Below, piece by piece: positions 26,595-41,062 of a DNA stretch of 44,603 bases (positions are counted from its first letter, which is position 1; the number at the start of each line of letters is the position of its first letter). The DNA lies in IMG/VR virus record IMGVR_UViG_3300017963_000103, positions 1 through 44,603 of that record. One strand, 5' to 3'. The DNA comes from a virus. A program made the position numbers and the translations under genes. The notes beneath the pieces are model-generated. The model saw only the letters and a list, made by a program, of their open reading frames with translations, had not been told where the DNA came from and made no database searches.

Positions 26595-26936
26595 TTATTT
26601 TCTCTCCATGCGCTTATACCCTGCTACTTTACCGGCCTGGAACAAAAGAATGTTTATTAAATCAGCTATCTCTTCCAATGTTTCGTTCGCTACCGTTTCG
26701 TTACTCACATCTTTCCAGTGTAAATATGCCCCATTGTACTCAACAAACTCATCTTTGTATAGCTGTCTAAGCTTATACATACTCTCTGTCAATGGGTCAG
26801 GCTTATCGACATCACGCATGATTTTAGGCATGCAGTAAACCTGTAACACATACTTGGCAAGCTGCGTGAATGTTATACCTGTGTCTGATTCCTGAAGTTT
26901 ATCATATCCTGTTTTGTATTGTTTTATTTCTTCCAC
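26595..26936 (-). CDS. Hypothetical all-helical protein (MazG-like?)
   Basis: 113 aa, all-helical by composition. The C-terminal helix NETLEEIADLINILLFQAG contains an E-x-x-D-type pattern that resembles the second metal-binding helix of MazG-like nucleotide pyrophosphohydrolases, but the first E-E-x-x-E helix is not obvious. Preceded by a small gene in the same transcript. Confidence 0.45.
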   Translation of the reverse strand: MEEIKQYKTGYDKLQESDTGITFTQLAKYVLQVYCMPKIMRDVDKPDPLTESMYKLRQLYKDEFVEYNGAYLHWKDVSNETVANETLEEIADLINILLFQAGKVAGYKRMERK

Positions 26937-28277: not shown

Positions 28278-28289
28278 AAATTGTTTTTG

Positions 28290-28363
28290 CACCTGAGTGG
28301 GACTCGAACCCACGACCCAAGAGTTTTAATCTTGTTGCTCTTACCAACTGAGCTATACTGGCG
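28290..28363 (-). tRNA. tRNA-like gene, apparent anticodon AAA (Phe?)
   Basis: Minus strand: D-arm GCTC-AGTTGGTAA-GAGC, anticodon arm CAAGA-TTAAAAC-TCTTG, T-arm GTGGG-TTCGAGT-CCCAC, total 74 nt. Acceptor CGCCAGT pairs with TCAGGTG at only five of seven positions (A-A and T-T mismatches). There is one extra base before the D-stem and one before the anticodon stem. U33 is present and the loop reads anticodon AAA, a very rare Phe reading. No CCA is encoded. A degenerating tRNA or an unusual functional one. Confidence 0.55.
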
Positions 28364-40381: not shown

Positions 40382-40410
40382 TTGATTTTAGTTATCCGGT
40401 GTGCTACTAT
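40382..40410 (+). promoter_or_regulatory. Extended promoter for the winged-helix gene
   Basis: TTGATT (40382-40387), 17-base spacer ending TGC, TACTAT (40405-40410). It lies directly after the 77-aa gene and produces a leader of about 110 nt before the start codon at 40523. Confidence 0.5.
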
Positions 40411-40460
40411 TAATTGTCTATTAAGGATTAATTACCCTTAGTAAATAGGCTAATAATTAA

Positions 40461-40517
40461 CCGATGATAGCGTCATACTTCTCCAAAAGGGGCGCTATTA
40501 TCGGACACCTTTTGGAG
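40461..40517 (+). promoter_or_regulatory. Leader RNA hairpin/pseudoknot sequestering the ribosome site
   Basis: A 12-bp stem (CCGATGATAGCG at 40461-40472 with CGCTATTATCGG at 40493-40504, one wobble) encloses a 20-nt loop holding CTCCAAAAGG (40481-40490). This is the exact complement of CCTTTTGGAG (40508-40517), which contains the ribosome site of the gene at 40523. If both form, the result is an H-type pseudoknot; if only one, alternative hairpins. Typical logic of a translational switch. Confidence 0.6.
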
Positions 40518-40522
40518 ATAAA

Positions 40523-40975
40523 ATGAAGCACATCAGCACTCGCTGGACTCCTCTTACAAAAGAGATGGTCTACTCAACAGCCCTACAATCACTCAAGCTA
40601 TCTGAAAGAAAAGTATTAGATTTTGCCATGCTCGAAAGACGTATGGAGAAAACATCACAAAAGAAGACTAAAAAGAAGCGTTACACGGCATCTAATGAAA
40701 TATTGATACCATACAGACAGTTGAATGATGAGCCGTTTAATATGAACAATTCTACTATCACGAGAGCGATTGACAGATTACTTGCTTTAGGGTTCTTGTC
40801 AATAACTGAGCAAGGTGGATCCAGACAAGGACACTCAACAAAATATAAGTTTATTGATAAATGGAAGACATGGAAATATGGAGATTCACCGATTGAAACA
40901 AGGAAAGCGTACCCAAATAGAGGGTTTACTGATAAAGTACGCATGCGAGATGACACATTACCCACATGCGGGTAG
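40523..40975 (+). CDS. Winged-helix protein (replication/regulation)
   Basis: 150 aa. SLKLSERKVLDFAMLERRME, then YTASNEILIPYRQLN, TITRAIDRLLALGFLSITEQGG and STKYKFIDKWKTWKYG, a winged-helix with recognition helix near 82-95. The pattern is shared with phage regulators and plasmid RepA-like initiators. A strong structured leader controls it, and 9-mer repeats overlap its 3' end. Likely an initiator or regulator of the right operon. Confidence 0.6.
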   Translation: MKHISTRWTPLTKEMVYSTALQSLKLSERKVLDFAMLERRMEKTSQKKTKKKRYTASNEILIPYRQLNDEPFNMNNSTITRAIDRLLALGFLSITEQGGSRQGHSTKYKFIDKWKTWKYGDSPIETRKAYPNRGFTDKVRMRDDTLPTCG

Positions 40976-41062
40976 GCGTGCGGGTGCTTTGAAAATTATT
41001 AGAGACCTGCATGCGAGCGGGCATGTGAAGAATAGTGTTTTATTAATGCCTGTGTGCATGCG
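40941..41062 (+). repeat. Iteron-like 9-mer repeats RCRTGCGRG
   Basis: Six copies of RCRTGYG: 40941, 40964, 40976, 41009, 41021 and 41056. Two neighbouring pairs are exactly 12 bp apart (40964/40976 and 41009/41021). GCATGCGAG occurs twice and a CATGCGGG/CGTGCGGG pair lies between. The final copy sits just upstream of a TATAAT (41067-41072). Either operators or origin iterons. Confidence 0.5.

Follow-up and report, generated by a model that had tools for sequence, protein, structure and literature searches.

The window analysed here, the whole 44,603-nucleotide stretch of virus record IMGVR_UViG_3300017963_000103, carries a gene for a winged-helix-like protein, preceded by a promoter-like block and by a leader in which two helices, termed S1 and S2, interleave ahead of the start codon (Table 1). 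Matches of the 150-residue product to winged-helix, MarR and DnaD_N/O-like profiles were weak, at about 14–18 bits against Pfam cut-offs of 24.6–27.4, while comparison with PHROG gave E values of 0.0035–0.04. With the profile scores under the curated cut-off, the protein was not assigned to the MarR/DnaD_N/O-like winged-helix families, and a PDB profile search conducted with it returned noise only.

Table 1. Positions of the leader elements and the downstream gene in the window
Feature	Position	Strand	Basis
Promoter-like block TTGATT-17-TACTAT, second hexamer TG-extended	40382-40410	+	sequence; partial match in L001
5'-end hairpin H0, GTCTAT-TAAGG / CCTTA-(GTAA bulge)-ATAGGC	40416-40450	+	predicted fold
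AU-rich single-stranded linker	40451-40460	+	sequence; A/T-rich linker in L001 too
S1 5' arm, CCGATGATAGCG	40461-40472 (to 40474 when extended)	+	pairs with 40493-40504
S2 5' arm, CTCCAAAAGG, inside the S1 loop	40481-40490	+	perfect complement of 40508-40517
S1 3' arm, CGCTATTATCGG	40493-40504 (from 40491 in the 14-bp version)	+	complementarity and changes in L001
ACA spacer, 3 nt, between S1 and S2	40505-40507	+	identical in L001
S2 3' arm, CCTTTTGGAG, holding the ribosome site GGAG at 40514-40517	40508-40517	+	
Gene for 150-aa winged-helix-like protein, downstream of the leader	40523-40975	+	open reading frame; ortholog in L001

From S1 to the start codon the leader reads CCGATGATAGCG TCATACTT CTCCAAAAGG GG CGCTATTATCGG ACA CCTTTTGGAG ATAAA ATG, such that the helix arms alternate in the order S1-S2-S1'-S2'. 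S1 consists of 12 pairs, one of them G-U, or of 14 if two adjoining wobble-type pairs are included, in which case it directly abuts the 5' arm of S2; the 10-bp S2 helix has a 3' arm ending five bases ahead of the ATG. Both the 12-bp stem and the 10-nt perfect complement of the GGAG-containing segment within its loop had been claimed in a prior sequence-only reading, and the coordinates given there proved exact. When both strands of the window were scanned for an S1 with 10 or more pairs whose loop could pair through 8 or more bases with a stretch beginning no more than 6 bases downstream, the leader was the sole place recovered, and 60 shuffles of the whole window yielded one match in total. 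Shuffling of the 111-nt leader itself produced a comparable arrangement in 0 of 3000 trials, an outcome repeated (0/3000) with the leader of the relative L001 introduced below, and the predicted stability of each leader exceeded that of its shuffled counterparts with a z of about −4.

The separate promoter proposed in the same reading fared less uniformly: its hexamers (40382-40387 and 40405-40410, 17 bp apart) score below the threshold of a consensus promoter scan, but L001 has both the element TGCTAC.ATTA and the 17-bp spacing. Transcription from this block would begin near 40417 and give a leader of about 106 nt. The additional upstream stem was likewise present, as a hairpin of 6 + 5 pairs with a 4-nt bulge on its 3' side, but its stability in the window was no better than that of shuffles (47 of 300 equally stable), whereas the same-shaped hairpin in L001 was significant, with only one of 300 shuffles as good. 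The predicted shape common to both comprises a lower stem of 5–6 bp, an upper stem of 5–7 bp and the 4-nt 3'-side bulge.

Searches for relatives of the gene identified one close relative in any of the collections searched, L001 (viral contig IMGVR_UViG_3300033388_003023), the product of which is 85% identical over 140 residues. Scans of viral contigs by protein, alignment and DNA pattern recovered only this contig, two further matches (L011 and L012) being judged chance, and the gene was without a match in phages (tblastn, E ≤ 10) or plasmids (tblastn, E ≤ 0.01). Genome contigs yielded L004 only (40% identity over 65 residues), in which positions 994-1437 code for a distant protein relative with a YKFIDKW motif on a mobile element of a Clostridiales metagenome-assembled genome, adjoining genes for an Xre-like regulator, a relaxase-like protein and a recombinase-like protein; the motif scan detected no such leader at this gene, and 398 genomes of the same phylum provided nothing further. 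Candidate H2/L003 (MT835796) was rejected because its match, in a transporter-like gene, is due to chance. At the DNA level, the first 25 kb of the window showed no similarity to any phage record tested.

L001 reproduces the layout of the window in full, with promoter-like block, bulged 5' hairpin, AU-rich linker, S1, loop helix over GGAG and ACA spacer, although the letters of the two leaders largely differ. From S1 to the start codon it reads CCCGGGTGAATG TTTC CTCCGAAGT G CATTTACCCGGG ACA ACTTCGGAG AAAATA ATG, with an S1 that extends to 13 pairs and zero bases between S1 and S2. Covariation in both helices, on which the sequence-only reading had staked its structure, was borne out in this one relative: among the 13 comparable S1 pairs seven were changed on both sides, one on one side and five were unchanged, and the corresponding figures for the nine comparable S2 pairs were three changed on both sides and six unchanged, four of these unchanged pairs forming the CTCC/GGAG core, which the ribosome fixes. 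Pairing was thus kept through two-sided compensatory changes at 10 of 22 comparable pairs, and in both sequences (n = 2) the ribosome site lies within a helix so maintained, with GGAG retained. Fourfold-degenerate codon positions of the two genes are identical in only 21 of 43 cases, which places silent positions near saturation, so that recent common descent alone is not the reason for the kept pairing and selection is its best explanation. It is on these grounds that coverage of the ribosome site by structure is well supported, and that a conserved interleaved structure, its two helices under selection and S2 containing GGAG, almost certainly exists.

Since window and L001 have different neighbouring genes around the unit, promoter, leader, gene and the repeats downstream of it appear, from the sequences compared, to move as one. 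These repeats are inverted repeats with a 6-bp spacer lying just past the winged-helix gene, at 40962-41062 in the window (CCACATGC-N6-GCGTGCGG and CTGCATGC-N6-GCATGTGA) and at 5440-5545 in L001 (CTGCACAC-N6-GTGTGCGG, twice), and a CGCTTATATAAT.TACCA block that is conserved follows them. Their appearance is that of operators or iterons with a core that differs between the phages, and alongside the core the putative recognition helix shows changes too, with NMNNSTITRA against NMANFTITRA. In the window these repeats did not significantly outnumber those of shuffles. An isolated palindrome-like sequence at 26815-26834, TGCATGCCTAAAATCATGCG, is similar to the repeats at 41008 and is possibly another site for the winged-helix-like protein.

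The palindromic character of S1 raises the prospect that the feature acts at the level of DNA, as an operator or origin element with incidental RNA pairing, and the operator-like inverted repeats downstream, which also differ between both phages, are in keeping with this. However, the spacing of the S1 arms shifts from 20 bases in the window to 14 in L001, the arms include G-T mismatches, able to pair only as RNA, and no account is given of the interleaved helix S2 over GGAG, so that a DNA-level role is highly improbable. Translational coupling merits slightly more consideration, since a short frame of 20 codons runs in the window from an ATG at 40464 to a TGA at 40524-40526, overlapping the gene start as ATGA, and a 15-codon frame in the same phase in L001 ends at the gene start as TAATG; a ribosome translating either frame would open S1 and S2 and restart on the gene. 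Neither frame is preceded by a ribosome site, though, the encoded peptides are unlike (MIASYFSKRGAIIGHLLEIK versus MFPPKCIYPGQLRRK) and their start positions within S1 differ, which together make coupling improbable.

The manner in which S1 and S2 might coexist was assessed with A-form coordinates in a coarse distance and bead-clash model. Crossing the minor groove of 12 bp requires about 44 Å, and the 3-nt connector (four links) reaches about 26 Å; a classical coaxial H-type pseudoknot with complete helices is therefore excluded, the connector being incapable of spanning an S1 of 12–14 bp. A bent arrangement of the helices satisfied distances and clashes in the window and, with a 12-pair S1, in L001, a 13-pair S1 in the latter incurring a small residual penalty, though the model treats bent geometries leniently, as it lets loop strands run through helices. 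The pseudoknot of the earlier reading is consequently retained as a pair of conserved interleaved helices and abandoned in its textbook coaxial form: with so short a connector, the folds left are a bent one, a partial one, or alternation between S1 and S2.

Nested folding favoured S1, the S1 hairpin being predicted at −16.8 (window) and −19.5 (L001) kcal/mol and the S2 hairpin at −14.9 and −13.8 kcal/mol respectively. In these nested-only calculations S1 prevailed at every temperature tested, with a paired fraction of 0.988–1.0 from 10 to 45 °C in the model without pseudoknots, and, without pseudoknot formation, S2 therefore leaves the ribosome site unclosed; in the nested fold the site was partly covered by other pairs in the window and largely open in L001. 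A reading of the leader as an RNA thermometer was ranked low. As an isolated duplex S2 was valued at −13.9 (window) and −13.2 (L001) kcal/mol, as against −6.4 and −6.6 kcal/mol for pairing of the ribosome site with the 16S anti-Shine–Dalgarno sequence, so that S2, if formed, outcompetes the ribosome for the site. The sign of the effect of S1 depends on whether the two helices coexist or exclude each other: coexisting helices, with S2 adding to S1, would bury the site strongly, and with mutually exclusive ones S1 would keep it available.

Pairing between a loop and a downstream segment that takes in the ribosome site is shared with the small-pseudoknot riboswitches preQ1-I and SAM-II, for which it serves as the expression platform, and sensing of a ligand had been offered as one prospect in the sequence-only reading. 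Those riboswitches possess conserved ligand-binding cores, by way of contrast with the present leader, in which unpaired conservation between the window and L001 amounts to ACA alone, the loops differing. Against Rfam 15 covariance models at the gathering threshold the window gave one tRNA only, all matches within the leader falling far below it, and relaxed E-values added nothing but sub-threshold noise. The window carries a phage tRNA-Phe gene at 28289-28363 on the minus strand, with the unusual anticodon AAA. Since ACA is the only unpaired sequence conserved and Rfam offers no matching family, ligand sensing is disfavoured; the connector, moreover, has too little length for a groove-binding fold of the usual sort, and a riboswitch of this kind has a very slight likelihood. 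The broader proposal of a translational switch stands in so far as the two-sided changes in both helices support coverage of the ribosome site, and is disfavoured in respect of a ligand.

Autoregulation, in the form of an autogenous operator by which the winged-helix protein, or a lysine/arginine-rich segment of it, would bind the folded leader and stabilise its closed form, has more in its favour. The structure directly precedes the gene and accompanies it while neighbouring genes differ, the protein carries a basic stretch (RRMEKTSQKKTKKKRY), and recognition that is relaxed in sequence and strict in structure is known for gp32 (PMC535899). The protein is nevertheless without a match to any RNA-binding family, its weak matches being to DNA-binding winged helices, and the arms and loops are almost wholly different between orthologs that are 85% identical; an autogenous operator is hence considered unlikely, although less so than the alternatives weighed above.

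Among established systems, the lambda cIII leader belongs to the mRNA of a phage regulator that takes alternative open and closed forms, with RNase III involved, and differs from the present leader in having no interleaved pairing. In Escherichia coli rpsO, which codes for S15, 30S-associated ribosomal protein S1 opens a knot at the start of a message with a GGAG ribosome site, and this opening is the slow step (PMC3858243). The present leader resembles it in combining a putative start-of-message pseudoknot with such a site, but has no relation to S15, and the rpsO knot pairs with coding sequence and leaves the Shine–Dalgarno sequence free for 16S rRNA while docked, whereas here that sequence lies inside S2. 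The type I toxin–antitoxin genes timP (PMC11228461) and tisB (PMC7708055) each combine a 5' structure and a sequestered ribosome site with a pseudoknot established by compensatory mutants; their knots are needed for translation, unlike the knot here, which covers the Shine–Dalgarno sequence, and they are toxin genes, while this leader has no known antisense RNA or toxin. In the gene 32 leader of T4 and RB69 the sequence of the pseudoknot may change with its shape kept (PMC535899), the difference being that this small knot lies about 40 nt upstream of the start, precedes an unstructured ribosome site and is bound by an Ssb protein. As these systems are described, none of rpsO, tisB, timP and gene 32 places the ribosome site itself in a knot with a 3-nt connector before a winged-helix gene. 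The class of device, a structure that buries the ribosome site, is well known; the leader motif and its gene are new.

Taken together, the sequence comparisons suggest that the leader probably works in cis, as an RNA gate through which translation of the winged-helix-like gene must pass, the structure being likely to lower that translation. S1 would form first on the new transcript and its loop would then capture the emerging ribosome site, the outcome being either a pseudoknot, bent or partial, or else two hairpins in equilibrium, S1 with the site open and S2 with the site closed. Slower initiation would in this way hold down the amount of protein made. The AU-rich linker separating H0 from S1 is a possible ribosome standby or ribosomal protein S1 site; the 30S subunit probably waits there and then opens the structure together with ribosomal protein S1, unless a trans-acting factor such as a nuclease, a phage or host RNA-binding protein or perhaps the gene product itself does so. 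The 5'-terminal hairpin H0 probably either shields the transcript or marks out where the ribosome stands by.

A more elaborate form of this gate, in which S1 (open) and S2 or a strained knot (closed) constitute a two-state switch that sets the dose of a DNA-binding regulator, with the RNA arms and downstream DNA repeats co-diverging between related phages as part of a specificity module, is tentative and on balance doubtful. If true, it would make the leader a cis-regulatory phage RNA of a new sort, with interleaved helices that cannot both be complete. The probable RNA gate is itself a compact phage leader of which the shape, not the letters, has been kept by evolution, with a geometry (a constant 3-nt ACA connector and a 12–14-bp stem) unlike that of the ribosome-site pseudoknots compared. 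It offers a testable case both of which would control translation, a knot or a two-state hairpin, and of the benefit that a phage may derive from gating a putative regulator.
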